The notes under the pieces were generated by a model, which was not told where the DNA came from, made no database searches, and was given only the letters and a program-made list of their open reading frames with translations. Source: Syntrophobacterales bacterium Delta_02 (GTDB taxonomy: Bacteria > Desulfobacterota > Syntrophorhabdia > Syntrophorhabdales > Syntrophorhabdaceae). Taken from it: DNA of 64,000 nucleotides. Positions 15,381 to 63,308 of this stretch are shown here, in pieces. The translations under genes were made by a program, and so were the position numbers. Where the stretch lies: assembly GCA_001603955.1 (NCBI GenBank), contig LVAA01000021.1:1-64000 (forward strand), given 5' to 3'. The first letter of the stretch is position 1. The number at the start of each line of letters is the position of its first letter.

Positions 15381-15404
15381 AAAGGAAACAGGAAGGGGTA
15401 ACAT

Positions 15405-16592: not shown

Positions 16593-16593
16593 A

Positions 16594-17352
16594 ATGGCAA
16601 CGTGGATGGTAGCGGGGAACTGGAAGATGAACAATACGACAGGGGAGGCGGTGGCTCTCGCGAAGGAGATCGTCGCCGGCCTGCCCGATATCGCAGGGCG
16701 CGGCGAGGTCGTTCTCGCTCCGTCCTTCACGGTCCTCAAGAGCGTTCATGATGTCATCAGCGGCAGCAAGGTTGCCCTCGCCTCGCAGAACATCTTTTTC
16801 GAGGACAAAGGGGCGTATACAGGCGAGATCTCGGCGGCGATGCTGAAGGATGCCGGTTGCACGTACGCCATCATTGGCCACTCGGAGCGCAGGAAGTATT
16901 TCCACGAGACCGATGAGGGCGTGAACGTCAAGGCGAAGAAGTGCCTGGCGTCCGGATTGAGGCCCATTATCTGCGTCGGTGAGACCGATGAAGAGCGCGA
17001 GGCGGGCATTACGGAGTTCGTTGTGGGGATCCAGGTGAAGAAGGCCCTGGCGGGGATAGCCGATCTCGGGGACATCACCATCGCGTATGAACCCGTGTGG
17101 GCGATAGGTACCGGAAAGAACGCGACACCGGGGCAGGCGGAAGAAGTACACGGATTTATTAGGAATATTCTGCATGACCTCTATAAGGACGCCTCACAGG
17201 GCGTGCGGATCCTCTATGGCGGCTCCGTCACCGCGGAGAATTTCGGGGAATTGATCGCCATGAAAAACATAAATGGTGCACTTGTCGGCGGTGCATCCTT
17301 GAAATCCGCAAGCTTTCTTGGTATAATAAGCCGCGCATTGGAGAATGGTTAA
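16594..17352 (+). CDS. tpiA: Triosephosphate isomerase
   Basis: A 252-residue TIM barrel. Lysine in NWKMN (residues 9-13), catalytic histidine in IGHSERR, catalytic glutamate in AYEPVWAIGTG, and the phosphate loop YGGSV are all present. The start is one base after the pgk stop with GGAGGTTGAA upstream. Its last base is shared with the secG start. Confidence 0.97.
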   Translation: MATWMVAGNWKMNNTTGEAVALAKEIVAGLPDIAGRGEVVLAPSFTVLKSVHDVISGSKVALASQNIFFEDKGAYTGEISAAMLKDAGCTYAIIGHSERRKYFHETDEGVNVKAKKCLASGLRPIICVGETDEEREAGITEFVVGIQVKKALAGIADLGDITIAYEPVWAIGTGKNATPGQAEEVHGFIRNILHDLYKDASQGVRILYGGSVTAENFGELIAMKNINGALVGGASLKSASFLGIISRALENG

Positions 17353-17651
17353 TGACAATAGCAGTTGCCATCATACATGTGGTAATAGCGATCGCCCTGA
17401 TCCTCATAGTGCTCCTGCAGACAGGAAGAGGGTCGGACATGGGGGCTGCCTTCGGCGGAGGGTCAAGTCAGACCCTTTTCGGCAGTTCCGGGTCTTCGGG
17501 TTTCATGACGAAGCTGACAACCATAGCGGCGGTCGTTTTTATGTTGACAAGTCTTGTGCTTGCGTATACTTATAGTCATAAGGGAAGCAGCGTAAGAAGT
17601 GTACCGGCGCAGAGCCAGCAGCAGAACGCTCCGGCGCAGGGGACCAAATGA
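17352..17651 (+). CDS. secG: Preprotein translocase subunit SecG
   Basis: A 99-residue protein with two membrane helices (about residues 3-22 and 54-74) around the conserved cytosolic loop VLLQTGRGSDMGAAFGGGSSQTLFG, here quoted only in part by name: LLQTGRG, GAAFGGG and TLFG. The low-complexity glutamine/alanine-rich tail is ordinary for SecG. tpiA-secG-tRNA-Leu is a frequent arrangement. Confidence 0.95.
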   Translation: MTIAVAIIHVVIAIALILIVLLQTGRGSDMGAAFGGGSSQTLFGSSGSSGFMTKLTTIAAVVFMLTSLVLAYTYSHKGSSVRSVPAQSQQQNAPAQGTK

Positions 17652-17659
17652 TAAGAAAT

Positions 17660-17741
17660 GCCGAAGTGGTGGAAGTGGCAGACACACCATCTTGAGGGGG
17701 TGGCGGGGAGACTCGTGCGGGTTCAAATCCCGCCTTCGGCA
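17660..17741 (+). tRNA. tRNA-Leu (GAG)
   Basis: An 82-nt class II tRNA with 5-prime GCCGAAG pairing with 3-prime CTTCGGC, a long variable arm (GCGGGGAGACTCGT) and T-loop GTTCAAA. The anticodon loop TTGAGGG between CCATC and GGTGG gives GAG. CCA is not encoded. It starts 8 bases after secG and is probably co-transcribed with that operon. Confidence 0.93.
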
Positions 17742-17828
17742 TTATATAAGTTCTTTTGACCGGCGGTTGCAGTTGCGTAATGCTTGAACGCATTTTATGA
17801 AGGGAAGTTTGCGTGCGGGGGGGTGTTG

Positions 17829-18233
17829 ATGGAACAAAGTGCAGTGCGGAAACCGAAAGGTGATCTCCACGTTTCCGTGGAGGAGCGTAGCAAGGGACTC
17901 AAAGACCTCGATTTTTTTGCCGATCATACCCATCTTCAAAACCTCATTCAGTTCAATACCCACAGAACAGCCTCCGATATGGGGCCGCTTTATTTGCGGT
18001 GTGCCCTTACATCGTTGTCATGTCCTCAATGCGGTGCCGAGGTGAAACGCAGCTACCGGCTTCATCCGGTGGAGTGGCTACTGAAGTTCGCGGGCCGCAA
18101 GGTCTTTTACTGCACCAGTTGCAGCTGGCGAGAGGTCGTAAAGATGGGCGAGTGGGAATGGCAGACGATACTCACCGTTCTCGTTGCCTTTCTCATAGTA
18201 TGCGGTGCCTCGATCCACTGGATGCTCCGATAG
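17829..18233 (+). CDS. Zinc-ribbon protein with C-terminal membrane anchor
   Basis: A 134-residue protein of unknown function. Residues 60-105 hold a CPQCG...CTSC pair, a treble-clef or zinc-ribbon pattern separated by about 33 residues. A single hydrophobic helix follows near the C-terminus (about residues 110-131, with TILTVLVAFLIVCGA). The N-terminal 55 residues are polar. ATG 17829 comes after a run of G. The arrangement predicts a tail-anchored protein with a cytosolic zinc ribbon. No family name is recognised. Confidence 0.6.
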   Translation: MEQSAVRKPKGDLHVSVEERSKGLKDLDFFADHTHLQNLIQFNTHRTASDMGPLYLRCALTSLSCPQCGAEVKRSYRLHPVEWLLKFAGRKVFYCTSCSWREVVKMGEWEWQTILTVLVAFLIVCGASIHWMLR

Positions 18234-18436
18234 GTGCGCCACCGGGGCCGGGAGCTTTCTTGAGTCTGCATTGGCGGAAGTGATCATCCCCATCGAATTG
18301 CCGACCTGACGCGACCTCAGGTGAGGTTTCTTTTCCGAAGTCTTTCAATTTTTTGAAGAAAAAGCGAACATGATATGATAAAAAAAGACCGGGGTACGGG
18401 TTAACTGGCCCAACAGGGGTTACAGCGGGTAGGCAG

Positions 18437-20263
18437 GTGACGAGACTCAGATCACTAAAACCAGGGGATTATCACTGTTTTCTTTACGAGAGCGAATCGG
18501 AATCGAACGCTTTTGCCCTGTCTTTCATCCGTCAGGGATTGGACAAGAGGGAAAAGATCATCTACTTTACGGCAGATCACAGTGCGGATGCTCTCGTCCA
18601 GTTCCTCAGGCAAAGCGAGATCGATGTGGATTCCGCCATGACGGCGGGTCAGCTCCAGGTGGAGAAGAGCGAGGCGGATTCCTGCGAGAAGATGGCACGG
18701 GATATGGCCCTCATCGGTCCGGAACCTTTACCTGTCGAAGATACGCCGCATCCGGCCTATAGTTCCCTTAGGATAGCCGTGGACGATACCATCCGGTTGA
18801 ACCAGACCGGAGAGGAAGGTTTCTGCGTTCCCTTCGCCATCGACCGTCTTGAGGCCATGGTGAGCGAGAAGTGCCTCATGGTCTTCATGTACGGTCTTGA
18901 CCGGCTCTCACCGGAGGCCTTGTTCCGCGTCCTGGCGACCTATCCGACCCTCATCATCGGCGACGACATCTACGAGAACTTCCTTTTCCGTAATCCCGTG
19001 ATATCCGGCCAGGAAGGGATGAAGACCGTCAAGGCGGAGCATCTTCTGGACCTGCTGAAGGACCACAGGAAGCTCAAGGACGCCATCAGGAAGGGGGGCC
19101 TCGCACTCCGGGCGAGCGAGGACAACTACCGGTCCATCTTTGAATCTGCGGCGAACCTGATCGCCATAGTCGATAAGAAAGGAAGGATCGTCGACTGCAA
19201 CGGAAAGATAGAAGAAGTGCTCGGTTACGAGAGAGAGGAGGTCATCGGAAGGTCGATAGCCGCCCTGTTCCATCCCAACCATCTCCACCGGGCCCTCGAG
19301 ATACTCAAGGAGGTCGTGAAAAAAGGCTCCTCGTACAACAAACAGTACCAGATGGTCAAGAAGGATGGGTCGACGGCGTATGTCAGCGTCAACTCCACGC
19401 CCCTCAAGAACGAGAAAGGGAAGATAACCAGGGTCGTATCCGTTGTCGAGGACATCACGGAACGCAAGAGGGTCGAGGAGGCCCTGTTCGAGAGTGAAAA
19501 ACGGTTTCGCCAGCTTGTCGAGATCCTGCCCGACGCCATTCTCACGCTTGCCGACAGGCGGATCATATTCGCGAACAGCGCGGCGTACAACCTCTTCGGC
19601 GTTAACCATCCGCGGGACCTCATAGGCCGGCGCGTTGAGGATTTTCTGGATGCCTCGGGAGCCGAGGCCGTGCGCGGGTGTTTCGAGGCCATCCAGCAGA
19701 ACGGAAAGACGGGCAAACCCGCCAGGGTTGCCACCGGCCGTCCCGACGGTTCCGTTGTGGTCATCGAGTGGACCGGGATGACCCTCAATCAGAGGGAAGG
19801 CGGCGGCATCCTTTTCATGGGCAGGGACGTGACCGAGCGGGAGGCGGCCGAGAAGCTCGTGCGCGAATCGGAGGAACGTTACAGGATAGCCGTGGAACAT
19901 TCGAACGATGGCGTGGCGATAGTCCGCGGAGAGAACTATGTTTACGTGAACAAGAGACTCTCTGAGATGTTCGGATTCAAGAACATCGATGATATAGTCG
20001 GAAAGAGCATAACCGTGGCGATCCATCCTGACGACCGCCAGCGCGTTCTCGCCATCAACCACATGCGCCAGAGAGGCGAAAAGGTTCCGGACCGTTATGA
20101 GTTCAAGGGGATACACAGGAACGGGTCCATCGTCTTCATAGAGGTTTCGGCAACGCCCGTCGTTTACATGGGCGAACCCGGTTCTCTCGTTTATTTTCGC
20201 GATATAACGGCGCGCAAGGAGATGGAAGACAAACTGAGAATGATCACCAGGCTTTTTCCCTGA
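18437..20263 (+). CDS. MEDS-PAS-PAS-PAS sensor protein without visible output domain
   Basis: A 608-residue protein. Residues about 5-180 match the MEDS domain (LKPGDYHCFLYESE start, KIIYFTAD, GFCVPFAID), a sensory module first described in DcmR-like regulators and found in archaeal and anaerobe kinases. Three PAS repeats follow (about 228-345, 355-470 and 485-600), each ending in a PAC-type DITERK/DVTERE/DITARK block. The protein stops ten residues after the last PAS, at MITRLFP, with no histidine kinase or GGDEF domain. It may act through protein contact, or it may have lost its kinase end. GTG 18437 is the likely start. Confidence 0.78.
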   Translation: MTRLRSLKPGDYHCFLYESESESNAFALSFIRQGLDKREKIIYFTADHSADALVQFLRQSEIDVDSAMTAGQLQVEKSEADSCEKMARDMALIGPEPLPVEDTPHPAYSSLRIAVDDTIRLNQTGEEGFCVPFAIDRLEAMVSEKCLMVFMYGLDRLSPEALFRVLATYPTLIIGDDIYENFLFRNPVISGQEGMKTVKAEHLLDLLKDHRKLKDAIRKGGLALRASEDNYRSIFESAANLIAIVDKKGRIVDCNGKIEEVLGYEREEVIGRSIAALFHPNHLHRALEILKEVVKKGSSYNKQYQMVKKDGSTAYVSVNSTPLKNEKGKITRVVSVVEDITERKRVEEALFESEKRFRQLVEILPDAILTLADRRIIFANSAAYNLFGVNHPRDLIGRRVEDFLDASGAEAVRGCFEAIQQNGKTGKPARVATGRPDGSVVVIEWTGMTLNQREGGGILFMGRDVTEREAAEKLVRESEERYRIAVEHSNDGVAIVRGENYVYVNKRLSEMFGFKNIDDIVGKSITVAIHPDDRQRVLAINHMRQRGEKVPDRYEFKGIHRNGSIVFIEVSATPVVYMGEPGSLVYFRDITARKEMEDKLRMITRLFP

Positions 20264-20277
20264 ACCATTGTTTTAGT

Positions 20278-21321
20278 TCATTTTTCGAGAAATCTTGAAA
20301 CCACCGCCGTTATCTTTGTCCCTTCGCACTGCAGTATATAATGGCCGCAGCTGCTGTTGAGGACCAGTGACCGGCCTCCAAGGAAGCCCGCGAGTTCGCG
20401 TGCGGGCCCGGGGTTTACCATGAGGTCCCGGGCGGAGACCACGGTAAGCGTTTCGGTGGTGATCTTCCGGTCGCCCCCGGCAGGATTGCCGAGGGCTGGG
20501 TACACGTCGTGTTTGATCATTGCCTTCAGCTGGCACGCGATATCCATGGGATCGTGTTCCTTCATCTCTCTTTCAGCTTTTTCAAGGTACGAGGACAACC
20601 CCGCGCGGTCTTGACTGGCAATGAAATGATCCGGGGTGCCCGACGCCATCGCGAAAACGCCGGCGGCCACGGCCAGCGCTCTATCATCCCAGACTTCCCT
20701 GGCTTGACCGCTGTCAAGGACCGCGAGGCCCGTTCGGTAGAGAAGAAGGTCGTAGGAGGTGGGCCTTGGTGTTCCGGTGATGGGTACGGCCTTGCTGACG
20801 CTGCCGGGATACGATGCCAGCCATTGGAAGGTTTGCATCCCGCCCATGGAGATACCGATGACGGCATGCAGATGCTTTATGCCCAGCCTTTCCGTGACAA
20901 GTCGGTATTGGGCGTGGACCATGTCTGCGATAGTGAGATCGGGGAACAGAACACCCCTCTGCGTGGTGCTGTTCGAGGGAGAGGATGATACTCCGTTTCC
21001 AAAGGCGTCAACGGCGATGACGAAGTACCGGGAGGGATCGACAAGCTTTCCCGGGCCTATGACAGCCTCGAGTTCGGCCGAAGTCCCCATGAACCACGTC
21101 GGAAAGACGACGGCGTTGGATCCCGATCCGTTTAGCTTCCCGAACGTGCGATAACCGAGAACGCAGTCACGGATAACACTGCCTCCCTCCAGCCTGAGAT
21201 CCCCCATTCTGAAAAACTGCTGCTCAGCGCCCGCGACCCCCGGCGGCGAGAGCAGAAACAGCGCCGCCATGAGGACGAAGATCACTGTAAGCCCCACTGT
21301 TCCCGTTTCTTTTCTTTCCAT
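20278..21321 (-). CDS. Exported MetX-like alpha/beta hydrolase
   Basis: A 347-residue protein with a cleavable signal peptide (residues 1-32, ending PPGVAGA). The body is a homoserine O-acetyltransferase/MetX-type alpha/beta hydrolase: GYRTFGKLN, the nucleophile elbow GISMGGM with Ser158, and a late aspartate in SARDLMV and histidine in CGHYIL completing the triad. Because it is exported it is unlikely to be the cytosolic MetX of methionine synthesis, so an esterase or hydrolase role in the periplasm is more plausible. It shares a divergent spacer with the lipoprotein gene. Confidence 0.82.
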   Translation of the reverse strand: MERKETGTVGLTVIFVLMAALFLLSPPGVAGAEQQFFRMGDLRLEGGSVIRDCVLGYRTFGKLNGSGSNAVVFPTWFMGTSAELEAVIGPGKLVDPSRYFVIAVDAFGNGVSSSPSNSTTQRGVLFPDLTIADMVHAQYRLVTERLGIKHLHAVIGISMGGMQTFQWLASYPGSVSKAVPITGTPRPTSYDLLLYRTGLAVLDSGQAREVWDDRALAVAAGVFAMASGTPDHFIASQDRAGLSSYLEKAEREMKEHDPMDIACQLKAMIKHDVYPALGNPAGGDRKITTETLTVVSARDLMVNPGPARELAGFLGGRSLVLNSSCGHYILQCEGTKITAVVSRFLEK

Positions 21322-53935: not shown

Positions 53936-55990
53936 ATGAGTAACGAGGGTCCATACAAGGCTTACAGCGGATGCGCACTGTGCTACCACAGCTGCGGCGT
54001 CGAGGTGACCATAGAGGACGGCAAGGCCATCAAGGTCGAGGGCCAGAAGGGCCACCCCTTGAACGACGGCAAGCTCTGCCCGAAGGGGCAGGCGATGATC
54101 GAGCATCTGTACCACCCCGACAGGCTGAAGTACCCCCTGAAGAGGGTGAACGGGGAGTTCGTTCGCGTCTCCTGGGAGGAGGCAATGTCGGAGATCGCCG
54201 GGAAGCTCGACAGGCTGAGGAACGAGTACGGCCCCGCCGCTCTTGCCTTCTTCTGCGGCTCCATCGGCGTCGAGAACCTGGAGATGATATCGCTCACCCA
54301 CCGGTTCAAGGCCGCCTTCGGCTCCCCGAACTTCTTTTCCGTCGAGTCCATCTGCTACCGTATGCGGATCAGGGCGCGGCAGATCACCTTCGGGAAGTAC
54401 CCCGTGGAGGAGATGGACTCCAAGCTCTACCTCCTCTGGGGCCACAACCCGGCGGCATCGGACTTTCCCCTCTCGCTGGCCATGGAGGAGAACCTGAAGA
54501 AGGGCTCCAAGGTCATCGTCATCGACCCCAGGCGCATCCCCATCGCCGACAGGGCGGAGATCTATACCCCCATCAGGCCGGGTACCGACGGCGCCCTGGC
54601 GCTAGCCATGATGAACGTCATCATCAACGAGGACCTCTACGATAAGAAGTTCATCGATGAGTGGACCTACGGCTTCGACAAGCTTGTCCCCCACGTCCAG
54701 CAGTACACCCCCGAGTGGGCGGAGAAGATAACGGGCGTAAAGGCGGACGTCACGAGGAAGATCGCCCGGATGTTCGCCACGACGAAGGGCGCCTCCATCT
54801 TCCACGGCACCTGCACCCAGGACCAGTGCGCGAACGGTTCCCAGAACGACAGGGCGCTTTCCATCCTCCAGGTGCTCACGGGCAACATCAACGTCCCGGG
54901 CGGCTGGGTGATAAGCCCGAGGCTGAGGCTCAACGACGTGTCTCTCCCCTTCCAGGGCAAGCCGCTCGGAGCGGACGAGTACCCGCTCTTTTACGAGCTC
55001 TGGGGAAGGACGAGCCCCTACGCGGTCATGAACATGGTGCCGGAGAGCGTTCCGGGTAAGCTCCGGGCTTTTATCGTGGCAGGCGGCAACCCGCTCGTCA
55101 CCATGCCCGATAGTAACGCTCTGAGGGAGGCCTTCGAGAAGCTCGACCTCGTCGTCGTCTACGAGCAGTTCCTCACCGAGACGGCCCGGTACGCCGACTA
55201 CGTCCTGCCGGCGCTCAACCAGCTTGAGTTCTGGGGCCTCGCGTACAACTACAACGTTTGCCACTGCCTGCCCTACCTGATGCTGAGGCCCGCACTCCTT
55301 CCGCCCTACTACGAGTGCCGCTCCATCCGGGATGTTTACACGGACCTCGCGAACCGGCTCGGCTTCGGCGACAAGTTCGCCTGGGAGAAGGACGAGGACG
55401 TGGTGAAGTACGAGCTCCAGCCCTGCGCCCTCACCTTCGACGACCTCATGGCAAAGCCCGGGGGTGCCCTCTACCAGGAGAAGGACTACACCCTGCGCCA
55501 GGGTTCCTTCGCCACCCCGACGGGGAAGATCGAGATCTATTCCCAGGCCTTCGCCGATGTCGGCCACGATCCGCTGCCCACCTACCTCGAGCCCTCGAAG
55601 AGCCCCCAGGGACGGCGCTGGGCCGAACTGGGCGAGAAATACCCCCTCGTCCTCGCGACGGGAACACGGGACTTCTACTTCAACGGCGGCATGCTCCACA
55701 ACATCAAGTCCCTCCAGGTCTGGTCTCCCTACCCGAAGGCGGAGCTGGGGCCTCAGACGGCGAAGAAGTACAGTGTCGCCAACGGCGACGACGTGATCGT
55801 CGAGACGGACAGGGGCTTCGTGAAGATGAAGGCCTCCGTCGACGCGAGGGTCATGGAGGGTGTTGTCCTCGTTCCCCACGGCTGGCCGGAGGAGGGGAAC
55901 TGCAACAGGCTCACTGACTGCAACGCCCGTGAGCCGATCATGGGATACCCCGAGTGGAAGGGACTTTTGTGTTCTATACGGAAAGCGTGA
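53936..55990 (+). CDS. Molybdopterin oxidoreductase of the DMSO reductase superfamily
   Basis: A 684-residue catalytic subunit. The N-terminal 4Fe-4S ligands are Cys13, Cys16, Cys20 and Cys48 (CALCYHSC...GKLCPKG). Cys140 in ESICYRMRIRA is the likely Mo or W ligand. Cofactor-binding pieces include LWGHNPAAS, VIDPRRIP, GNINVPGGW and GGNPLVTMPD. No Tat signal, so the enzyme is cytosolic. No dedicated electron-transfer subunit follows; an FmdE-like gene and the redox cassette do. Third codon positions are almost all G or C, more extreme than in neighbours. The substrate is unknown. Confidence 0.9.
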   Translation: MSNEGPYKAYSGCALCYHSCGVEVTIEDGKAIKVEGQKGHPLNDGKLCPKGQAMIEHLYHPDRLKYPLKRVNGEFVRVSWEEAMSEIAGKLDRLRNEYGPAALAFFCGSIGVENLEMISLTHRFKAAFGSPNFFSVESICYRMRIRARQITFGKYPVEEMDSKLYLLWGHNPAASDFPLSLAMEENLKKGSKVIVIDPRRIPIADRAEIYTPIRPGTDGALALAMMNVIINEDLYDKKFIDEWTYGFDKLVPHVQQYTPEWAEKITGVKADVTRKIARMFATTKGASIFHGTCTQDQCANGSQNDRALSILQVLTGNINVPGGWVISPRLRLNDVSLPFQGKPLGADEYPLFYELWGRTSPYAVMNMVPESVPGKLRAFIVAGGNPLVTMPDSNALREAFEKLDLVVVYEQFLTETARYADYVLPALNQLEFWGLAYNYNVCHCLPYLMLRPALLPPYYECRSIRDVYTDLANRLGFGDKFAWEKDEDVVKYELQPCALTFDDLMAKPGGALYQEKDYTLRQGSFATPTGKIEIYSQAFADVGHDPLPTYLEPSKSPQGRRWAELGEKYPLVLATGTRDFYFNGGMLHNIKSLQVWSPYPKAELGPQTAKKYSVANGDDVIVETDRGFVKMKASVDARVMEGVVLVPHGWPEEGNCNRLTDCNAREPIMGYPEWKGLLCSIRKA

Positions 55991-56006
55991 TATAGTAAGA
56001 GGCAAG

Positions 56007-56624
56007 ATGATGGTTCGGTCCCACACCTTCGAGGAGTTCGCCGGGATGGTGAAGGCTTTCCACGGCAGTGTCGCCCCGGGTATCATGATCGGCGGGTCCA
56101 TGGTGGACCTCGCCCTGGGCTGCCTGCCAAAGGAGGGTCTCTATGATGTCATATGTGAGACGCAGAAGTGCCTGCCCGATGCGGTGCAGCTCCTTACCCC
56201 CTGTTCTATCGGCAACGGATGGTTGAAGATCATGGACACGGGCCGCTTCGCCCTTGCCTTCTACGACAAGTATACCGGCAAGGGAATACGGGTTTTCATC
56301 GACCCCGAGAAGCTTGGCCCCTGGCCGGAGATAAAGGCCTGGCTCCTGAAGCTGACCCCCAAGAAGGAGCAGGACACGGCCCGCCTCATGAAAGAGATAG
56401 AGGAGGCGGGGAGTGAGATCTGCTCCGTGGAAAGGATCCAGGTCGCTGTTGACCTTCTTAAGAAGACAAAGGGTGGCCCCATCGCCCTATGCCCCTCCTG
56501 CGGTGAGCCCTACCCCTCCGGGCGGGGCGCCATATGCCCCGCCTGCAAGGGAGGGGTGCTGCCGTACGGGTCGGGGCCGCGGGGAGGCGGCAGGGTCAAT
56601 ACCCGTGAATGCACGGAAGATTGA
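56007..56624 (+). CDS. FmdE-family protein with C-terminal zinc ribbon
   Basis: A 205-residue protein of the FmdE family (named after formylmethanofuran dehydrogenase subunit E). The opening FHGSVAPGIMIG carries His19 but has alanine where most members have cysteine (HLCPG). CETQKCLPDAVQLLTPCSIGNG follows, and a zinc ribbon CPSCGEPYPSGRGAICPAC is at about residues 163-183. Stand-alone FmdE proteins often neighbour molybdenum enzymes and may serve in cofactor handling; this is inference. It begins 16 bases after the Mo enzyme, so the two are probably one transcript, ending at the palindrome 56637-56678. Confidence 0.82.
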   Translation: MMVRSHTFEEFAGMVKAFHGSVAPGIMIGGSMVDLALGCLPKEGLYDVICETQKCLPDAVQLLTPCSIGNGWLKIMDTGRFALAFYDKYTGKGIRVFIDPEKLGPWPEIKAWLLKLTPKKEQDTARLMKEIEEAGSEICSVERIQVAVDLLKKTKGGPIALCPSCGEPYPSGRGAICPACKGGVLPYGSGPRGGGRVNTRECTED

Positions 56625-56636
56625 AGAACGATCGGG

Positions 56637-56678
56637 AAAACATTTGTCCACCGGCAGCACGCGGTGGACAAATGTTTT
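56637..56678. terminator. Perfect 17-bp inverted repeat between the Mo enzyme and the cassette
   Basis: AAAACATTTGTCCACCG (56637-56653) and CGGTGGACAAATGTTTT (56662-56678) are exact complements around the 8-base loop GCAGCACG. The right arm ends in TTTT, so it resembles a bidirectional terminator. It ends 20 bases before the next gene, leaving no room for an ordinary promoter downstream, so an operator or attenuator role is also possible. Confidence 0.75.
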
Positions 56679-56698
56679 AAGAAGGATGGAAGTGCATC

Positions 56699-57169
56699 AT
56701 GGAAGAAGGGATAAAGCTGGAGATCGATGCCGAAGTTGGGCTTATCCTGGAGAAAAGGGGTATCAGGGTCGAGGATATCGAAAGGGTCATCGAGTTCGCG
56801 AGGGAATCAGGGAACGTCTATGTCCATCCGGAGACTGGCCGCTGTCTGGCCTATTTCACGCCATCGACTACGACCTATTGGGTCGAGTTCAGCAGGGAAG
56901 GCGATGCGTACAGGATATACAGGGCCTATTCGCATCGCATGGAGATACTGCACGGTTTCAACATGCCCGCAAAGAAGCAGGAGATCCTGGACTGGACCTG
57001 TGCGAAGTGCGACAGAAAGCTCGAGCTGGCTACGGTGAAGCTTAGATACATGGAAGAGACCTTCGGTGTCGACATACCCGCGTGCCCTTCCTGTCAGCGC
57101 ATATTCGTAAGCGAGGAGGATGCTACCCGGAGGATGGCACTGGCGGAGAAGATGCTTGAGGACAAGTAA
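56699..57169 (+). CDS. CLJU_RS11820/DVU_1557-type redox (zinc-ribbon) protein
   Basis: A 156-residue protein. The C-terminal 60 residues have the pattern of the DVU_1557-like family: DWTCAKCDRKLELATVKL, then IPACPSCQRIFVSEEDATRRM and KMLEDK at the end, with two CxxC pairs fit for zinc or a redox disulfide. The N-terminal 95 residues form an additional domain with VYVHPETGRCLAYFTPSTTTYWVEF, as in the longer CLJU_RS11820-type variant. It is the first gene of the five-gene cassette and begins after the perfect palindrome; AAGGATGG is the ribosome-binding site. Names are recalled from NCBI protein families and need a model search. Confidence 0.72.
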   Translation: MEEGIKLEIDAEVGLILEKRGIRVEDIERVIEFARESGNVYVHPETGRCLAYFTPSTTTYWVEFSREGDAYRIYRAYSHRMEILHGFNMPAKKQEILDWTCAKCDRKLELATVKLRYMEETFGVDIPACPSCQRIFVSEEDATRRMALAEKMLEDK

Positions 57170-57175
57170 CGCGCG

Positions 57176-57868
57176 ATGGAAGATAACGAGCGGGGTACAT
57201 GTCTTGAGAGGATAACCGGCGGGACCTTGAGGCCCGGTGGATTGGCCATGACGGACAGGGGCCTTGAACTGTGCCGCATGCCCCGTGACGGCCGGGTGCT
57301 CGACGCGGGGTGCGGCAGCGGTGTCACGCTCAAGCATCTCGCGGAGTGCCACGGGGCGTGGTCTTGCGGTCTCGACCTTTCAATGGAAATGCTCGCCCGG
57401 GCCCGGGCGGGGGAATATGAAGGCCCCCTGGTCCGGGCAAGGATGGAGGCAATGCCTTTCGGGAACGGGGTGTTTGAGGGCGTCCTGTGTGAATGCGTTC
57501 TCTCCCATACCGATGCCGGGGCAGTGGTGAAGGAATTTTCCAGGGTTATCGAAAAAGGGGGCTTTCTTGTGCTTTCCGACCTTTACCGGCTGTCGAGCGA
57601 GGTTTCGGCACCGCAAGGAATGAGTGTCCTCGATAGGGAGCGGTTACAGGAGTATCTGGCCCGGTCCGGTTTCGATATCGTGAGCTGGGAGGACAGGACC
57701 GCCGATCTCAGGAAACTTGCGGCGGAACTCATCATGTCGGGCTGTTCGCTGCCGCCCTATCATATGGCCGGCGGATGTGGCGGTGGAGAAACATTCTTCG
57801 CCTGGCGGGGTGTGGGATATTATCTTCTCGTGGCAAGGAGGATAAATGGGGACCAATGCGGGAGATGA
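57176..57868 (+). CDS. trsM: DVU_1556-type class I methyltransferase
   Basis: A 230-residue SAM-dependent methyltransferase: GRVLDAGCGSGVTLKHLAE near residue 40 is motif I, LDLSMEML motif II, and VLCECVLSH the family-specific cysteine motif. The tail holds a glycine-rich AGGCGGGETFF and GVGYYLLVARR, features of the DVU_1556-like family that travels with this cassette. It overlaps the next gene by 23 bases. The methyl acceptor is unknown; extra cysteines suggest a metal- or sulfur-bound partner. Confidence 0.75.
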   Translation: MEDNERGTCLERITGGTLRPGGLAMTDRGLELCRMPRDGRVLDAGCGSGVTLKHLAECHGAWSCGLDLSMEMLARARAGEYEGPLVRARMEAMPFGNGVFEGVLCECVLSHTDAGAVVKEFSRVIEKGGFLVLSDLYRLSSEVSAPQGMSVLDRERLQEYLARSGFDIVSWEDRTADLRKLAAELIMSGCSLPPYHMAGGCGGGETFFAWRGVGYYLLVARRINGDQCGR

Positions 57869-58322
57869 AGTGCTCGAACTCAACGAACGCGTGCTTGAGG
57901 CGGCGAGGCTCAACGGAGTGGGCTATTGCTGTACCCAGATAATGGCCATCATGATGCTGAGAAGGATGGGCAGGGAAAACCCGGACCTCGTGCGGGCTGT
58001 AGGCGGATTGTGCAAGGGGATAGTCGATGCCGGGGAAACATGCGGTGTTCTGTTCGGAGGTGTCTGTCTCATTTCCCTCATCCTCGGGAAAGGCTCCGAC
58101 GATGAGACGGCAAAGGACGATCTTCCCTTCGCCATCCACGACCTGGCGGAGTGGTTTGAGCGCCAGACCAGGGGTCCCTACGGCGGAAAGAAATGTGTGG
58201 ACATCCTCACCGCGAGCCCTGACAAGAAGGCCTGTCTCAAGCTGATCGTCGGAACCTATGACAAGGCGCTCTCGATACTTGAGAGTTACGGGGTGCGCCC
58301 CGGAGATACCGTGAATGAGTGA
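57846..58322 (+). CDS. C-GCAxxG-C-C family redox protein (DVU_1555-type)
   Basis: A 158-residue helical protein of the C_GCAxxG_C_C family. Cysteines occur at GYCCTQIM (about residues 27-29), GGLCKGIV, GETCGVLFGG, GKKCVDI and KKACLKL, in the order that names the family. These proteins are thought to be redox or metal-binding modules; the third motif reads ETCGVLFG where GCAxxG is usual. AAGGAGGATAA precedes the ATG, inside the methyltransferase gene. Confidence 0.82.
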   Translation: MGTNAGDEVLELNERVLEAARLNGVGYCCTQIMAIMMLRRMGRENPDLVRAVGGLCKGIVDAGETCGVLFGGVCLISLILGKGSDDETAKDDLPFAIHDLAEWFERQTRGPYGGKKCVDILTASPDKKACLKLIVGTYDKALSILESYGVRPGDTVNE

Positions 58323-59721
58323 CGCCCCTGCGGCACGTGTGGTCAAGAGGTCGGAGAGTCTCTGCCCCGTCTGCCTCAAGGTCCTCCAGGCAACCCTGGT
58401 GGAAAAGGGCGGCGAGGTCTTCCTGGAAAAATCCTGCGAGGGACACGGTAGATGGAGCGTTCCCGTGTGGAGGGGAGAACCGCGGTACGAGGAATGGACG
58501 CGGCCGAAAAGCCCCGCCCACCCGGAGGTGCTCTATGGCCGGGTGGAGAGGGGATGCCCCTTTGATTGCGGGCTCTGCGCGGTCCATCGCCAGTATCCCT
58601 GCTCGGTGCTCCTCGAGGTCACGAACCGCTGTAACCTCGGATGTCCCGTGTGCTTTGCCGACACATCCTGTGCGCCCTCGACGCCGGATGAGCCGGACCT
58701 TCAGACCATCGGCTGGTGGTACGAGCGGGTCATGGAGGCGGCAGGCGCCTGCAGCATACAGCTCTCCGGCGGTGAGCCCACGCTCAGGGAGGACCTCCCG
58801 GAAATAGTGGCCCTGGGGGTGGAGAAAGGTTTTTCCTTTATCCAGGTTAACACGAACGGGATCCTCATCGCCGGCAGGCCCGGCTACGCGAAGATACTGC
58901 GGGAAGCCGGTCTTTCCACCGTCTTTCTCCAGTTCGACGGCACCGAGGACCGGATCTACACCGAGCTCAGGGGGCGCCCGCTGCTTGGCGAGAAGATGGC
59001 GGCCATCGAGGAGTGCGCGGCGGCGGGACTGGGGGTTGTCCTCGTTCCCACCCTCGCGGCGGGCGTGAACACGGACAACATCGGATCCATCATCCGTCTT
59101 GGTGTGAAGCTGAGCCCCATCGTGAGAGGCGTCCATTTTCAACCCCTCAGTTACTTTGGCCGGTATCACCTTGCACCCGAGCCTGCGCGGAGGTTTACCC
59201 TTCCCGAGGTCATTTCGGCCATTGCCGGGCAGGCCGGCGATCTCTCCGACCGATGGAATTTTCTGCCGCCGGGCACCGAGAACGACCATTGCTCCTTTCA
59301 CGGCAGTTTCCTCGTGATGCCCGACGGCCGATTGAAGGCCACATCACCGTCGGCCGACCTGTGCTGCAGGGGGAGAAGCGACGGCAGGGAAGGGCTCATG
59401 CGCACCATTTCCACCGTTGCCAGGCAATGGTCCCCGGCCTCGTCCTGCTGCGAGGGGGGTGCCCTGGAGAACCCGGACGTGAGGTCAGGGAGACCCCTCG
59501 TTTCCGAGGGGGATGTCATGGACCTCGATGCCTTCCTGGAGAGGGGAAGGGACTTTGGATTCTCCATCTCCTGCATGGCCTTTCAGGATGTATGGAACAT
59601 TGACCTCGACCGGCTCCGGGACTGTTGTATCTCCATAATGTCCCGCGATGGACGTCTCATCCCCTTCTGCGCCTACAACCTGACGAGCGAAACGGGGCGG
59701 ACACTCTACCGTGGAACGTAA
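58315..59721 (+). CDS. trsS: Radical SAM protein, TrsS/tetraether-synthase-like
   Basis: A 468-residue radical SAM protein. An N-terminal zinc-like unit SLCPVCLKVL and KSCEGHG precedes CPFDCGLCAVH, then the cluster motif TNRCNLGCPVCFAD (Cys106, Cys110, Cys113 approx.). SIQLSGGEPTLREDLPE follows. This layout is shared with archaeal tetraether lipid synthase and with the (seleno)protein TrsS; all candidate selenocysteine positions read cysteine here. A C-terminal cysteine-rich part (DLCCRGRSDG, SSCCEGG, RDCCISIM) could hold further clusters. It overlaps both neighbours. Confidence 0.78.
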   Translation: MSDAPAARVVKRSESLCPVCLKVLQATLVEKGGEVFLEKSCEGHGRWSVPVWRGEPRYEEWTRPKSPAHPEVLYGRVERGCPFDCGLCAVHRQYPCSVLLEVTNRCNLGCPVCFADTSCAPSTPDEPDLQTIGWWYERVMEAAGACSIQLSGGEPTLREDLPEIVALGVEKGFSFIQVNTNGILIAGRPGYAKILREAGLSTVFLQFDGTEDRIYTELRGRPLLGEKMAAIEECAAAGLGVVLVPTLAAGVNTDNIGSIIRLGVKLSPIVRGVHFQPLSYFGRYHLAPEPARRFTLPEVISAIAGQAGDLSDRWNFLPPGTENDHCSFHGSFLVMPDGRLKATSPSADLCCRGRSDGREGLMRTISTVARQWSPASSCCEGGALENPDVRSGRPLVSEGDVMDLDAFLERGRDFGFSISCMAFQDVWNIDLDRLRDCCISIMSRDGRLIPFCAYNLTSETGRTLYRGT

Positions 59722-61057
59722 GGCGCCAGGAACACCTCTCGATCGCTGGATCGCCGGGAAGGTGCATGGCGGCCGGGGGGCCCCCTCCTTTGTATCGCGG
59801 GAAGACCTCGACCGCTACCACCTCGAGAGACTCCGTGAGGCCGTGGACTATGCGAGGGACAGGAGTCCCTACTACGCAAGGCGCCTCAACGGATTCTCCG
59901 GCGGTGGCCTTGACTCCTTCGCGGATGTCGCCGCCCTGCCTTTCACCACGGAACGGGACATAAAGGATTCTCCCCTGAGCTTTCTCTGTGTCTCCCAGGA
60001 CGAAATAGCCCGCGTTGTCACCCTTAATACATCAGGCACGACAGGCCCGTCGAAGCGGCTCTTCTTTACCGCCGGCGACCTGGAACTGACGATAGATTTC
60101 TTTCACCACGGCATGTCCACCCTCGTATCCCCCGGGCAGCGGGTGCTCATACTCCTCCCGGGGGAAAAGAGGGACAGTGTCGGCGATCTTTTGAAGAGGG
60201 GACTCGCCAGGATGAACGTGGAGGGGGTCGTTCACGGTCCCGTGCGCGACGTGGACAGGGCCCTGTCGGACATCGTGAAGTTCGACATCGATTGTCTTGT
60301 CGGCATACCCACCCAGGTGTTGTGGATGGTACGGCACGGGGGCAGGGGTATCCCCGCCGGCAGGATCGGGAGCGTGCTCCTCTCGACGGACTATGTCCCG
60401 AAGGCCATCGTCGACGAGATCGGAAGGGTATGGGGTTGTCCCGTCTTTTCCCATTACGGCACGACGGAGACGGGGCTGGGTTTCGCCGTCGAATGCGCGG
60501 CCTTGAGCGGTCACCACATCCGCGAAGCGGACTTCTACGTGGAGATAGTGGATCCCGTCACGGGCCTGTCCTGTCCCGACGGGCAAGAGGGGGAGATCGT
60601 TTTCACCACGCTCACCCGGAAGGGTATGCCGCTTGTCCGGTACCGAACCGGGGATATCTCCCGTTTCATGATAGAACCGTGTCCCTGCGGAACCGCACTC
60701 AAGCGTCTCGGCAGGGTCTCGGGCAGGTTCGAGGGCAGGGTGCCCGTCGGCCGGAATCACGTCCTGACCATCCCCGACCTTGATGAAGCTCTCTTTCCTG
60801 TTCCGGGATTGATCAATTACTCGGTGGAGTTGGTCCGCGATGACGATAAAGACCGGCTCGTCCTCCATCTTTATACCGGCAAAGCCGATGACGGCGACCT
60901 GGCGAACACGGCCCACAAGGCCGCGATGACGGTGCCTGCCGTTCGCGAGGCGGTCATGGAAGGTTCCCTCGAAGTCCCCCAGCCTAATTTCACCTCGACA
61001 AACCCCTTCACGACGGGGGTGGGGAAGAGAAGACTGGTCGTCAGGACGACCGCTTGA
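59711..61057 (+). CDS. PaaK-like AMP-dependent CoA ligase (DVU_1553-type)
   Basis: A 448-residue phenylacetate-CoA ligase-like enzyme. It has LNTSGTTGPSKRLFF (about residues 105-119), SHYGTTETGLGFAVEC and LVRYRTGDISRF, with a C-terminal domain ending FTTGVGKRRLVV containing the acylation lysine. In Desulfovibrio the corresponding gene (DVU_1553 family) sits in the same cassette. A tight link to a radical SAM enzyme and methyltransferase suggests activation of a carboxylate during cofactor or lipid formation rather than general catabolism. GTG 59711 overlaps the radical SAM gene. Confidence 0.78.
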   Translation: MERKAPGTPLDRWIAGKVHGGRGAPSFVSREDLDRYHLERLREAVDYARDRSPYYARRLNGFSGGGLDSFADVAALPFTTERDIKDSPLSFLCVSQDEIARVVTLNTSGTTGPSKRLFFTAGDLELTIDFFHHGMSTLVSPGQRVLILLPGEKRDSVGDLLKRGLARMNVEGVVHGPVRDVDRALSDIVKFDIDCLVGIPTQVLWMVRHGGRGIPAGRIGSVLLSTDYVPKAIVDEIGRVWGCPVFSHYGTTETGLGFAVECAALSGHHIREADFYVEIVDPVTGLSCPDGQEGEIVFTTLTRKGMPLVRYRTGDISRFMIEPCPCGTALKRLGRVSGRFEGRVPVGRNHVLTIPDLDEALFPVPGLINYSVELVRDDDKDRLVLHLYTGKADDGDLANTAHKAAMTVPAVREAVMEGSLEVPQPNFTSTNPFTTGVGKRRLVVRTTA

Positions 61058-61110
61058 ACCGCTTGAACCGCTTGAACCGCTTGAACCGTTGGAATCGTTG
61101 GAATCGTTGG
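61050..61110. repeat. Short-unit repeat array, CGCTTGAAC family, overlapping a stop codon
   Basis: Four tandem CGCTTGAAC units begin at 61051, so the TGA stop of the ligase gene is inside the first unit. They grade into CGTTGGAAT units. A partly complementary array (CCAACGATCCCAACG) lies at 61360-61400, on the far side of the MITE-like copy. Confidence 0.75.
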
Positions 61111-61138
61111 GGAGCGTGTGGATAAAGCCCTGCTTTTC

Positions 61139-61306
61139 GTCATCCCGGCGAAGGCCGGGAGCCAGGAAAACTCCTGTCGCAGCGAAAAGCACACAATAGA
61201 CAACACCCTGAGGACACCAAATTGAGAGGTGCCGTGGGATTTTTCCTTGTCAGGTGGTCGTAAAGTGCCGGTTCTTTCTGGATCCCGGCCTTCGCCGGGA
61301 TGACGG
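61139..61306. mobile_element. MITE-like element, copy 1, with REP-type ends
   Basis: TCATCCCGGCGAAGGCCGGGA at the left (61140-61160) and its inverted complement ending CGCCGGGATGAC (61278-61305) bound about 115 bases of non-coding interior. These ends belong to the widespread palindromic repeat family that, when translated, reads VIPAKAGIQ and WIPAFAGMT. The interior is related to that of copy 2, but in reverse orientation. Confidence 0.75.
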
Positions 61307-61394
61307 AGAATGAGGAATGCCGGGATGACATGGAAGAGAACTTTGCCGACAGCCTCTTCCAACGATCCCAACGATTCCAACGGTTCCAACGATT

Positions 61395-62081
61395 CTAACG
61401 GTTCTTCCCCGTCATCTTGTTTATCGTATCTATCCTGTACTGCAGGTTGGGGTGGGTGTCGAAGAGGCCTGTCGAGTCTGAATTTTCCCCCTTCGATGCG
61501 GCGTACTGCTTCATCTTCTCCAGGGCGGAAACGTAGTTATCCGGTGTGAGCCGCAAAAGGTGGCACTGGTCGACGACGTCCTTGTCCGCCTCCAGTTCCT
61601 GCGACCTGCTGTATCCGCTCGTGATGAGAGGGTTGACGATGAGATTCCCGTAGCCCACACCGGGAAGGAAGAGCCCGGCTATGGTGAACGCCGCCGAGGT
61701 GGCATCGGAGAGAAGGGAATTCTTCGCCGCATGGTCATACTTGATGTGGGCATTTTCGTGAAGAAAGATGAGGGCAAGTTCGTTGTCGTCGCACATCCTC
61801 AGAAGACCCGTGGTTACGACGAAGACGCCTTTCTGCGTGTTCACCCAGGCATTGGGGGCTTTGTCCTCAACGATGGCGAACCGGAAGCGGTAGATGGGGT
61901 AGGGGTCGATGACCCCGCGTGAGTCCGTGAGGATGCGGTTCACCCGCTGATACATCTCGGGATTCTCACGCGACTTCAGATACTTCACCTTTTGCCCCGC
62001 GCATCCGCAAAGGACAAGGAGGCAAAGGAGAACCGTCAGGACCCTGGTGTATACTGCCATTCTGTTTCTACTGCGGGACAT
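61395..62081 (-). CDS. M48-family metallopeptidase, lipoprotein
   Basis: A 228-residue lipoprotein peptidase. The signal has a hydrophobic core and lipobox LCGCA (cysteine near residue 28). The zinc motif is HENAH (about residue 112) and the third ligand is in RSQELEADKDVVDQC. M48 lipoproteins such as LoiP/YggG degrade misfolded outer-membrane proteins in the periplasm. ATG 62081 follows AGGGAAGGG. Two MITE-like elements flank the gene, and the short-unit array on its right reaches the 3-prime end. Confidence 0.87.
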   Translation of the reverse strand: MSRSRNRMAVYTRVLTVLLCLLVLCGCAGQKVKYLKSRENPEMYQRVNRILTDSRGVIDPYPIYRFRFAIVEDKAPNAWVNTQKGVFVVTTGLLRMCDDNELALIFLHENAHIKYDHAAKNSLLSDATSAAFTIAGLFLPGVGYGNLIVNPLITSGYSRSQELEADKDVVDQCHLLRLTPDNYVSALEKMKQYAASKGENSDSTGLFDTHPNLQYRIDTINKMTGKNR

Positions 62082-62141
62082 ATTCCCTTCCCTCAACAGG
62101 CTGTTGACAAACTCGTCTGCAAAGTCGCTTCATCCCCTCGC

Positions 62142-62310
62142 GTCATCCCGGCGAAGGCCGGGATCCAGGAAGGATCGGCAGTAAATGACCACTTCACGGC
62201 AAGAAGTCCGACGGCACCTTTCATTCTGTCTTCTTCGGGGATTATCCCGTTGTGTGCTTTCTGTTGCAACAAAGGCTTTTTCTGGATCCCGGCCTTCGCC
62301 GGGATGACGG
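62142..62310. mobile_element. MITE-like element, copy 2, with REP-type ends
   Basis: The same ends as copy 1: GTCATCCCGGCGAAGGCCGG (62142-62161 onwards) and CGGCCTTCGCCGGGATGACGG (62290-62310). From 62283 to about 62379 the sequence is identical to 61278-61373, so both copies share a 3-prime flank continuing through GAATGAGGAATGCCGGGATG into a short-unit repeat. The interior is inverted relative to copy 1. Confidence 0.75.
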
Positions 62311-62359
62311 AGAATGAGGAATGCCGGGATGACATGGAAGAGAACTTTGCCGACAGCCT

Positions 62360-62400
62360 CTTCCAACGATCCCAACGGTTCAAGCGGTTCAAGCGGTTCC
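62360..62400. repeat. Short-unit repeats at the end of the CDF gene
   Basis: CCAACGATCCCAACGG followed by TTCAAGCGGTTCAAGCGGTTC lies immediately after the shared MITE flank and reaches the stop of the transporter gene (62400, minus strand). It mixes the two unit types also seen at 61050-61110. Confidence 0.65.
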
Positions 62401-63308
62401 TACTTCTTCTTAAATACACACGTTATCTCCGTGAGGTCGCATTGTTCCTTGCATGGTTCCACGTGTACGATGACATCGGCATGGGGTATCTTCATCTTTA
62501 TCCTGTCCTCGATCCCCTGGGCAAGATCGTGCGCTTCGTCGACATGAAGTTTCCTGCACGCGAGGAGATGGAAGTCTATGTACTTGCTGCTCCCGGAATG
62601 GCGGGTCCGCAGTTTGTGGAACCCGGCCATGGGGAAGGGCATCCCGTTGATCATGTCCCTGATCTGACGCTCCACCTCATCGTCAAGGCGTGAATCCATG
62701 ACGCCCGACATGCTGCCCCGGAAGATCCTGATCGCCGAGTAGATGATGATCAGTCCGATAACGACGGCAAAGGCAAGGTCGAAGAACGTGATGCCGGTGT
62801 AATAGGTGAGTATGATCGCGATTATGGCCCCCGAGTTGGAGTAAAGATCGCTCCTGTAATGGAGAGCGTCGGCCTTGAGCGCGTTTGAATCCGTTCGGTT
62901 GCCGACCCTGAGAAGGGCCGTTGATATGACGAAACTGAAGACGAGGGAAAGGCACATCGCGAGAAGGTCGAAAAAGGAGTATGATATGGTCCCCTTTCCA
63001 ATGAACGTTTGCACGGCCTTGAAGACGATGAACCCCCCGGACAGTACGATCACCACCGATTGAAAGACGCCGGCCAGGTCCTCCGCCTTGCCGTGCCCGT
63101 ACCGGTGCTCGTCGTCGGCCGGTTCAGACGCCTTTCTCACCGCATAGAAGTTCATGACGGACATGAAGACGTCGAGAAGGCTGTCGAGGCCGGAAGACAC
63201 CACCGTCATGGAACCCGAAAAGAGCCCTATGGTGAACTTGCCTGCGGCCAGCACGAGGGCCGATGCCGCGGCGAGGAGGGCGACCCTCTGCTTGACGTCC
63301 ATAGGCAT
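62400..63308 (-). CDS. Cation diffusion facilitator family transporter
   Basis: A 302-residue CDF antiporter with six membrane helices in the first 200 residues. Metal-binding aspartates are visible in SSGLDSLLDVFMS (helix 2) and ADALHYRSDLYSN (helix 5), and DEHRYGHGKAEDL is the conserved loop. The C-terminal cytosolic domain has the KYIDFHLLACRKL ferredoxin-like fold with histidines (SKYIDFHL, DEAHDLA, PHADVIVHVEP). FieF-like Fe/Zn export is likely, though metal specificity is uncertain. Confidence 0.9.
   Translation of the reverse strand: MPMDVKQRVALLAAASALVLAAGKFTIGLFSGSMTVVSSGLDSLLDVFMSVMNFYAVRKASEPADDEHRYGHGKAEDLAGVFQSVVIVLSGGFIVFKAVQTFIGKGTISYSFFDLLAMCLSLVFSFVISTALLRVGNRTDSNALKADALHYRSDLYSNSGAIIAIILTYYTGITFFDLAFAVVIGLIIIYSAIRIFRGSMSGVMDSRLDDEVERQIRDMINGMPFPMAGFHKLRTRHSGSSKYIDFHLLACRKLHVDEAHDLAQGIEDRIKMKIPHADVIVHVEPCKEQCDLTEITCVFKKK

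Follow-up and report, generated by a model that had tools for sequence, protein, structure and literature searches.

A TrsS radical SAM cassette in Syntrophobacterales bacterium Delta_02, probably one half of a two-part molybdenum hydroxylase system

Five genes at 56699-61057, encoding a TrsS radical S-adenosylmethionine (SAM) protein and four partners, were analysed in a stretch of 64,000 nucleotides from Syntrophobacterales bacterium Delta_02 (contig LVAA01000021.1 of assembly GCA_001603955.1; hereafter the window). They follow genes for a molybdenum/tungsten (Mo/W) oxidoreductase of the dimethyl sulfoxide (DMSO) reductase family (MoOR) and an FmdE-like protein. All seven open reading frames listed by an earlier note on this DNA were recovered (Table 1), and NCBIfam profile searches placed each of the five cassette proteins above the curated cut-off of its family, with 74.4 bits for DVU_1557 family NF045645 (cut-off 60), 191.8 bits for the DVU_1556 methyltransferase NF045667 (155), 148.9 bits for the DVU_1555 C-GCAxxG-C-C protein NF045669 (103), 610 bits for TrsS NF045646 (490) and 466.2 bits for the DVU_1553 ligase NF045666 (300). 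The same note had described five overlapping genes after a Mo/W enzyme; the order stands, and four of the genes do overlap (57846-57868, 58315-58322 and 59711-59721), but the first ends 6 nucleotides short of the second.

Table 1. Features at the cassette locus (window positions)
Feature	Position	Strand	Basis or characteristics
DVU_1557-type fusion protein	56699..57169	+	NF045663 C-terminal domain + DUF7479; two-CxxC; ends LEDK-stop
DVU_1556 family methyltransferase	57176..57868	+	NF045667; invariant E-C motif (Cys107)
DVU_1555 family C-GCAxxG-C-C protein	57846..58322	+	NF045669; four invariant Cys
TrsS radical SAM protein	58315..59721	+	NF045646; Tes-type N-terminal rubredoxin-like, [4Fe-4S]N and radical-SAM cluster motifs
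DVU_1553 family PaaK-like AMP-dependent ligase	59711..61057	+	NF045666
17-bp perfect hairpin, intrinsic terminator of the MoOR-FmdE unit	56637..56678	+	folding; conservation after FmdE
MoOR, stand-alone DMSO-reductase-family Mo/W oxidoreductase; flanking, judged outside the cassette	53936..55990	+	Pfam; PDB search; distribution
FmdE-like protein, treble-clef zinc finger; flanking, judged outside the cassette	56007..56624	+	PF02663; PF23475

The first cassette protein, previously taken for a plain two-CxxC protein, was found to be a fusion, in which the two-CxxC part (residues 98-156, DVU_1557/DUF7479) is preceded by the C-terminal domain of the dicluster protein family NF045663 (residues 2-84, profile positions 676-758). 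Its AlphaFold model reached a predicted local distance difference test (pLDDT) score of 83. A Foldseek fold search of this protein returned no match with E < 0.001, and VIA-align gave BrnT/RelE-type folds with a best Z of 8.0, a weak likeness which, as the tool warns, may be a mere common arrangement. A RelE/BrnT-like fold is predicted, with the same weak score, for the small dicluster C-terminal domain (window 56699-56950), and this domain occurs by itself as well as in fusion with the dicluster protein or with DUF7479. In alignments of loci, DUF7479 has four invariant cysteines. The motif LEDK directly before the stop codon (window 57148-57169) is nearly invariant in the DUF7479 genes of about 110 loci (L062:7651-7863 is one example) and resembles a docking tail or a site of modification.

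Alignment of the methyltransferase placed its invariant cysteine beside a glutamate. The model of the DVU_1555 protein was predicted to be all-helical, and its best fold match, split-Soret cytochrome c (1h21), had a probability of 0.97 but an E value of 0.37; nothing else stood out in that search. The closest solved structures of the ligase are phenylacetate-CoA ligases. A plasmid search for TrsS yielded distant radical SAM proteins only.

Recurrence of the cassette was surveyed in a phylum sample of 395 genomes, mostly metagenome-assembled genomes (MAGs), 43 of which carried TrsS over the cut-off; about 20 kb was retrieved around each locus, and gene content was scored by six-frame hidden Markov model searches. 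A scan of GTDB genomes contributed at least 80 further named loci, and frequencies outside the phylum are not prevalence estimates. Among the matches listed, 77 loci had full flanks, defined as at least 6 kb on both sides, and all counts out of 77 given here refer to these. All five cassette genes were present in 61 of the 77. Taken singly, DUF7479 was found in 75, an HdrB-like CCG protein in 74, the ligase in 73, the methyltransferase in 72 and the C-GCAxxG-C-C protein in 65; a xanthine-oxidase-family aldehyde oxidoreductase (Mo-AOR, NF045668) was likewise local to 65. Over its own cut-off, the ligase was detected in 42/44 TrsS-positive genomes versus 0/36 TrsS-negative ones. Cassette hosts span at least seven phyla (labels as listed: Desulfobacterota, Bacillota, Chloroflexota, Alphaproteobacteria, Spirochaetota, Synergistota and Acidobacteriota), and culturable ones among the matches listed include Acetobacterium, Clostridium tyrobutyricum, Sporomusa and Rhodoplanes. 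The usual order has the Mo-AOR and the dicluster protein (NF045663) ahead of the cassette, with an XdhC-like factor, a MocA-like nucleoside triphosphate (NTP) transferase and a phosphatase often after it. The five families are therefore far from being rare companions, and the earlier suggestion that they recur together is borne out. We conclude that the five genes are supported as a coherent system recurring across phyla, usually with a molybdenum hydroxylase.

All five families have been named by NCBI, with their function uncharacterised, and the association with Mo-AOR may already have been published. Judging by NCBI names such as 'near Sec' and 'XdhC family aldehyde oxidoreductase maturation factor', the curators saw this link. 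PMC13188914 credits TrsS to Haft and Tolstoy 2025. A literature search found no paper naming DVU_1551-1557, and papers on DVU_1558/1559 offer only proteome counts and the label 'ethanol metabolism'.

In the flanks of the window cassette (locus L084), neither Mo-AOR nor dicluster protein was found. Both were detected on another contig of the same genome, C100, with the Mo-AOR at 17713-20424 (1698.7 bits) followed by the dicluster protein at 15287-17590 (1036 bits), a DUF7479 protein and an ADP-forming acyl-CoA synthetase, and the system is thus present but split in two. Tetranucleotide usage of C100 correlated with that of the window at r = 0.976, where the window's own contig scores 0.975. Both parts, on different contigs, were also found in three sister species, and in G296 the cassette is likewise apart from the Mo-AOR. 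Across the phylum sample, 34 of the 395 genomes carried Mo-AOR over the cut-off, and 32 of these 34 also had TrsS over the cut-off (Fisher p = 2e-35); of the remaining two, G330 has a TrsS broken across two contig ends and G241 has none. Within the window's genus, Mo-AOR was present in 4/5 TrsS-positive and 1/7 TrsS-negative genomes. The sequences thus make it very probable that 56699-61057 holds half of a widespread system in two parts, the Mo-AOR half of which lies elsewhere in the genome. The catalytic set (Part A) is made up of Mo-AOR together with the dicluster protein and the small protein DUF7479, and the window cassette constitutes Part B. Most genomes carry both in one operon, and here Part A is on C100. 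A second Mo-AOR-like gene at G256:C11:56171-58696 (1056 bits, just under the cut-off) has one in-frame TGA and is a candidate pseudogene or selenocysteine gene.

A tree of 120 TrsS proteins placed the window's TrsS inside a large Mo-AOR-linked clade (Shimodaira-Hasegawa-like approximate likelihood ratio test, SH-aLRT, 97), and the other TrsS proteins of its family in a separate clade without local Mo-AOR. These positions suggest that the window's genus acquired the cassette separately. A mirror-tree comparison of TrsS and C100 Mo-AOR identities gave only a moderate correlation (rho 0.30, p 0.013). Extra Mo-AOR loci, at G372:C1, G296:C3 and G000:C100, keep the dicluster and DUF7479 proteins yet lack TrsS and the methyltransferase, which suggests that the latter two may act in trans.

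In the second TrsS clade, which has no local Mo-AOR, the CCG protein, DUF7479, the methyltransferase and the ligase are retained, the HdrB-like protein in 7/8 of its full-flank loci; the shared core therefore centres on the HdrB-like protein. Neighbours in this clade are fumarate-reductase-like, 2-hydroxyacyl-CoA dehydratase-like or tripartite ATP-independent periplasmic (TRAP) transporter genes. Five cassette genomes (G212, G131, G075, G108 and G039) gave no NF045668 match, a result which covers that family alone and leaves other Mo/W enzymes uncounted. Independence from any Mo/W enzyme, which the earlier note had held against a linked system, was thus seen in part, in one clade as regards local NF045668 and in five genomes as regards any NF045668 match. 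Cassettes at L052, L054 and L140 adjoin 2-hydroxyacyl-CoA dehydratase/benzoyl-CoA reductase-like genes, with no Mo-AOR in genome or locus, and a BadF-type ATPase occurs at L052 and L054. In the window's family, the cassettes without Mo-AOR at L056, L058, L063 and L071 have varying sets of neighbours, drawn from fumarate-reductase-like, TRAP transporter, B12-binding and RACo genes. Two further loci, L078 (G377:C158) and L079 (G146:C42), each have two adjacent TrsS-related radical SAM genes below the cut-off and share several further families; by gene content this is a different, unstudied cluster.

In the dicluster protein, an FAD/NAD(P) domain is joined to an HdrC-like ferredoxin domain and to an HdrB-like domain that carries two complete CCG motifs. 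The two full motifs, C-x(about 35)-CC-x(about 35)-C-x2-C, were present in 94/95 dicluster and 9/10 CCG-only proteins. CCG motifs are the mark of the non-cubane clusters of the heterodisulfide reductase subunit HdrB. A core centred on an HdrB-like protein, and a TrsS and methyltransferase that seem to act in trans, speak more for a pathway that makes a redox cofactor, either diffusible or carrier-bound, than for a dedicated catabolic step or for modification of a lipid. The products of Part B would make a small redox-active cofactor used by Part A. In such a pathway the PaaK-like ligase would adenylate a carboxylate, the methyltransferase would methylate an intermediate, and TrsS would activate an inert C-H bond through a 5'-deoxyadenosyl radical, giving a C-S or C-C bond by way of a sulfur-bound intermediate as in Tes. 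Electron supply or transport of the product could fall to the DVU_1555 Fe-S protein and the two-CxxC DVU_1557 protein, and reduction or oxidation of the cofactor, perhaps a thiol/disulfide pair, to the HdrB-like domain, which would thereby connect Mo-AOR with NAD(P)H or ferredoxin. We regard this mechanism as tentative, and rather more doubtful than not; the best explanation taken whole, two-part system together with cofactor synthesis, comes close to an even chance without reaching it. The earlier note had left the product as a small molecule, cofactor or lipid; a lipid found no positive support, and a cofactor is the better guess, inferred only.

Several points weigh against this account. 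The window's genome is a MAG with 5.98% estimated contamination; G398 carries the cassette but no Mo-AOR over the cut-off, and G401 (74% complete) carries Mo-AOR but no TrsS. CCG domains also occur in ordinary electron-transfer proteins, such as lactate and glycerol-3-phosphate dehydrogenases, so the motifs do not prove a disulfide substrate. Finally, the ligase, and the ADP-forming acyl-CoA synthetase next to Mo-AOR on C100, would fit plain aldehyde catabolism equally well.

The strongest competitor of cofactor synthesis, though on balance unlikely, is a maturation role, with TrsS and its partners acting on the molybdenum cofactor, by modifying or inserting it, or activating the Mo-AOR protein itself. 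It would account for the near absence of Mo-AOR without TrsS, and it is favoured by Type I loci, which add an XdhC-like factor (NF045664), a MocA-like NTP transferase (NF045665), a MoeA-like protein and a phosphatase, by the ability of a single TrsS to serve several Mo-AOR copies, and by the tail of DUF7479, which reads [LVM]EDK-stop in 81/81 loci with a local Mo-AOR and is variable in loci without one. It is countered by the separate TrsS clade, which keeps dicluster/CCG protein, DUF7479, methyltransferase and ligase without a local Mo-AOR, and by the five cassette genomes in which NF045668, the only Mo/W family counted, went unmatched.

Somewhat less likely again is a catabolic route, in which Mo-AOR would oxidise an aldehyde, the PaaK-like ligase would activate the acid, and TrsS and the methyltransferase would rearrange the carbon skeleton, other lineages using other redox enzymes on the same substrate class. 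The logic of aldehyde to acid to acyl-CoA, with the acyl-CoA synthetase adjoining Mo-AOR on C100, agrees with this, as do the dehydratase-like, fumarate-reductase-like and TRAP transporter neighbours of the clade without Mo-AOR. The extra Mo-AOR loci, which keep the dicluster and DUF7479 proteins and not TrsS or the methyltransferase, speak against it; to our knowledge, pairing of a methyltransferase with a radical SAM protein is also unusual in catabolism, which likewise counts against such a route.

A lipid-modifying function, in which TrsS would join or modify alkyl chains in the manner of tetraether synthase, is raised by its nearest solved relative, GDGT-MAS/Tes, whose metal-ligand motifs TrsS shares in alignment. 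The Tes ligand motifs C-x2-C-x20-C-x2-H, C-x3-C-x2-C plus His, C-x3-C-x2-C and Met439 were tested, the metal ligands of GDGT-MAS including labile Met439 (PMC9433317). It was found that the rubredoxin-like iron site motif (C17/C20/C41/H44), the N-terminal cluster motif (C81/C85/C88/H91), the radical-SAM cluster motif (C106/C110/C113) and, at the Met439 position, M421 were invariant in 20 aligned TrsS proteins. Since the GDGT-MAS reaction proceeds via a substrate carbon-sulfur bond to the enzyme's C-terminal cluster, TrsS could by analogy form C-S or C-C bonds at unactivated carbons. Against the Tes family NF045702, however, the window's TrsS scored 312.7 bits, below the curated cut-off of 450, and the Tes Tyr459 position is Ile441 here and mostly Val in relatives, though this tyrosine is not essential in Tes (PMC9433317). 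No recurring lipid-synthesis gene was seen beside the cassettes, where a molybdenum enzyme and an HdrB-like protein do recur, and we consider lipid modification very improbable.

The adjoining MoOR has three molybdopterin-oxidoreductase domains (Pfam), and its best PDB match is acetylene hydratase (2E7Z, E 3.7e-83); assignment as formate dehydrogenase alpha (TIGR01591) was rejected at 356.1 bits against a cut-off of 666.25. The earlier note had grouped MoOR, FmdE and the cassette; the seven genes do not form a single continuous unit, given the strong 17-bp hairpin between FmdE and the cassette (fold z = -5.5; unique in the genome). The hairpin is kept after FmdE in G404, G396, G398 and the cassette-free G400, where the same GTCCACCGG...CCGGTGGAC core is followed by a T-run. 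G400, of the same genus and 99% complete, has no TrsS; its MoOR is 92% identical over the part present and its FmdE 74%, and the hairpin is followed by M48 peptidase, cation-efflux and penicillin-binding genes, which are those beyond the cassette in the window. Nucleotide similarity between the two ends at 56581 and restarts at 61404, with 4.8 kb in the window versus 528 bp in G400. G400 thus has an empty site between FmdE and the M48 peptidase gene, and because the hairpin is kept there it terminates the MoOR-FmdE unit; on the grounds of terminator and empty site, a single operon with the cassette was rejected. On both sides of the M48 peptidase gene (61100-61400 and 62100-62420), adjoining the insertion edge of the cassette, lie REP-like CCCGGC...GCCGGG repeats together with short tandem repeats (CCGCTTGAA, TTGGAATCG).

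Upstream, an enoyl-CoA hydratase, an Old Yellow Enzyme-type reductase and a 3-hydroxyacyl-CoA dehydrogenase gene lie 5' of MoOR in an order conserved in G404, and genes for a branched-chain-type ABC transporter and an acyl-CoA synthetase come before them in the window; MoOR-FmdE therefore looks like the end of a catabolic cluster. MoOR orthologues (at least 60% identity) were found in 23/39 genomes of the family, 13 of these 23 without TrsS, and in genera other than the window's the orthologues are on other contigs than TrsS. That the MoOR/FmdE link marks a variant of the cassette, as the earlier note had supposed, is not upheld, since the pair exists without the cassette and has its own terminator, and the usual hydroxylase is on C100. 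Cooperation of the cassette with this pair is the least probable of the readings considered, in spite of a gene order conserved in several species of the genus and a different, 37%-identical MoOR paralogue within 10 kb of cassettes without Mo-AOR in the same family, since beyond the terminator, G400 and the genomes without TrsS, a MoOR-type enzyme occurred in only 4 of the 77 loci in the rest of the phylum, where about 3-4 are expected by a rough estimate from about 6 matches per 3 Mb genome. The neighbouring MoOR is, on this genomic evidence, probably incidental to the cassette.

The partners with which the cassette should be studied are accordingly the aldehyde oxidoreductase and the HdrB-like dicluster protein, and not the adjoining molybdenum enzyme. 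If cofactor synthesis is the correct reading, a redox carrier of at least seven bacterial phyla awaits discovery. Its most far-reaching form, which we rate as improbable, would be a bacterial counterpart of methanogen coenzyme M/coenzyme B, a new thiol/disulfide (or similar) cofactor of anaerobes, recycled by the HdrB-like protein and coupled, depending on lineage, to Mo-AOR, fumarate-reductase-like or 2-hydroxyacyl-CoA dehydratase-like enzymes.

Compared with known systems, the locus most resembles the type cassette of Desulfovibrio vulgaris, DVU_1551-1559 (NF045645, NF045646 and NF045663-NF045669), which has the same five families in the same order and Mo-AOR, dicluster protein and DUF7479 in the same genome. 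It differs in that the window's Mo-AOR/dicluster half is on a separate contig and the dicluster C-terminal domain is fused to DUF7479; also unlike the type cassette, no NTP transferase or XdhC maturation genes were found beside the window cassette or beside the C100 half. Acetylene hydratase (2E7Z) shares with MoOR a stand-alone DMSO-reductase-family fold and one Fe-S motif, but its catalytic Asp13 beside the Fe-S cysteine is replaced by Tyr in MoOR. Tes/GDGT-MAS (MJ0619; PDB 7TOL, 7TOM) and TrsS have in common the rubredoxin-like, N-terminal [4Fe-4S] and radical-SAM motifs and the Met439 position, whereas Tyr459, strictly conserved in archaeal Tes, is replaced in TrsS, the gene neighbourhoods are unrelated and TrsS falls far under the Tes family cut-off. 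Accessory systems of selenium-dependent molybdenum hydroxylases (SelD-linked; PMC2432076) are alike in that MobA-related and XdhC genes accompany a xanthine-oxidase-family aldehyde oxidoreductase; the candidate genes quoted from that source differ in having no radical SAM, methyltransferase, ligase or HdrB-like parts. With HdrB/HdrC of heterodisulfide reductase and TfrB of thiol:fumarate reductase, the dicluster protein shares the HdrC-like two-cluster domain and two complete CCG motifs, and it differs from them in its fusion to a GltD-like FAD/NAD(P) domain and a RelE-like small domain.

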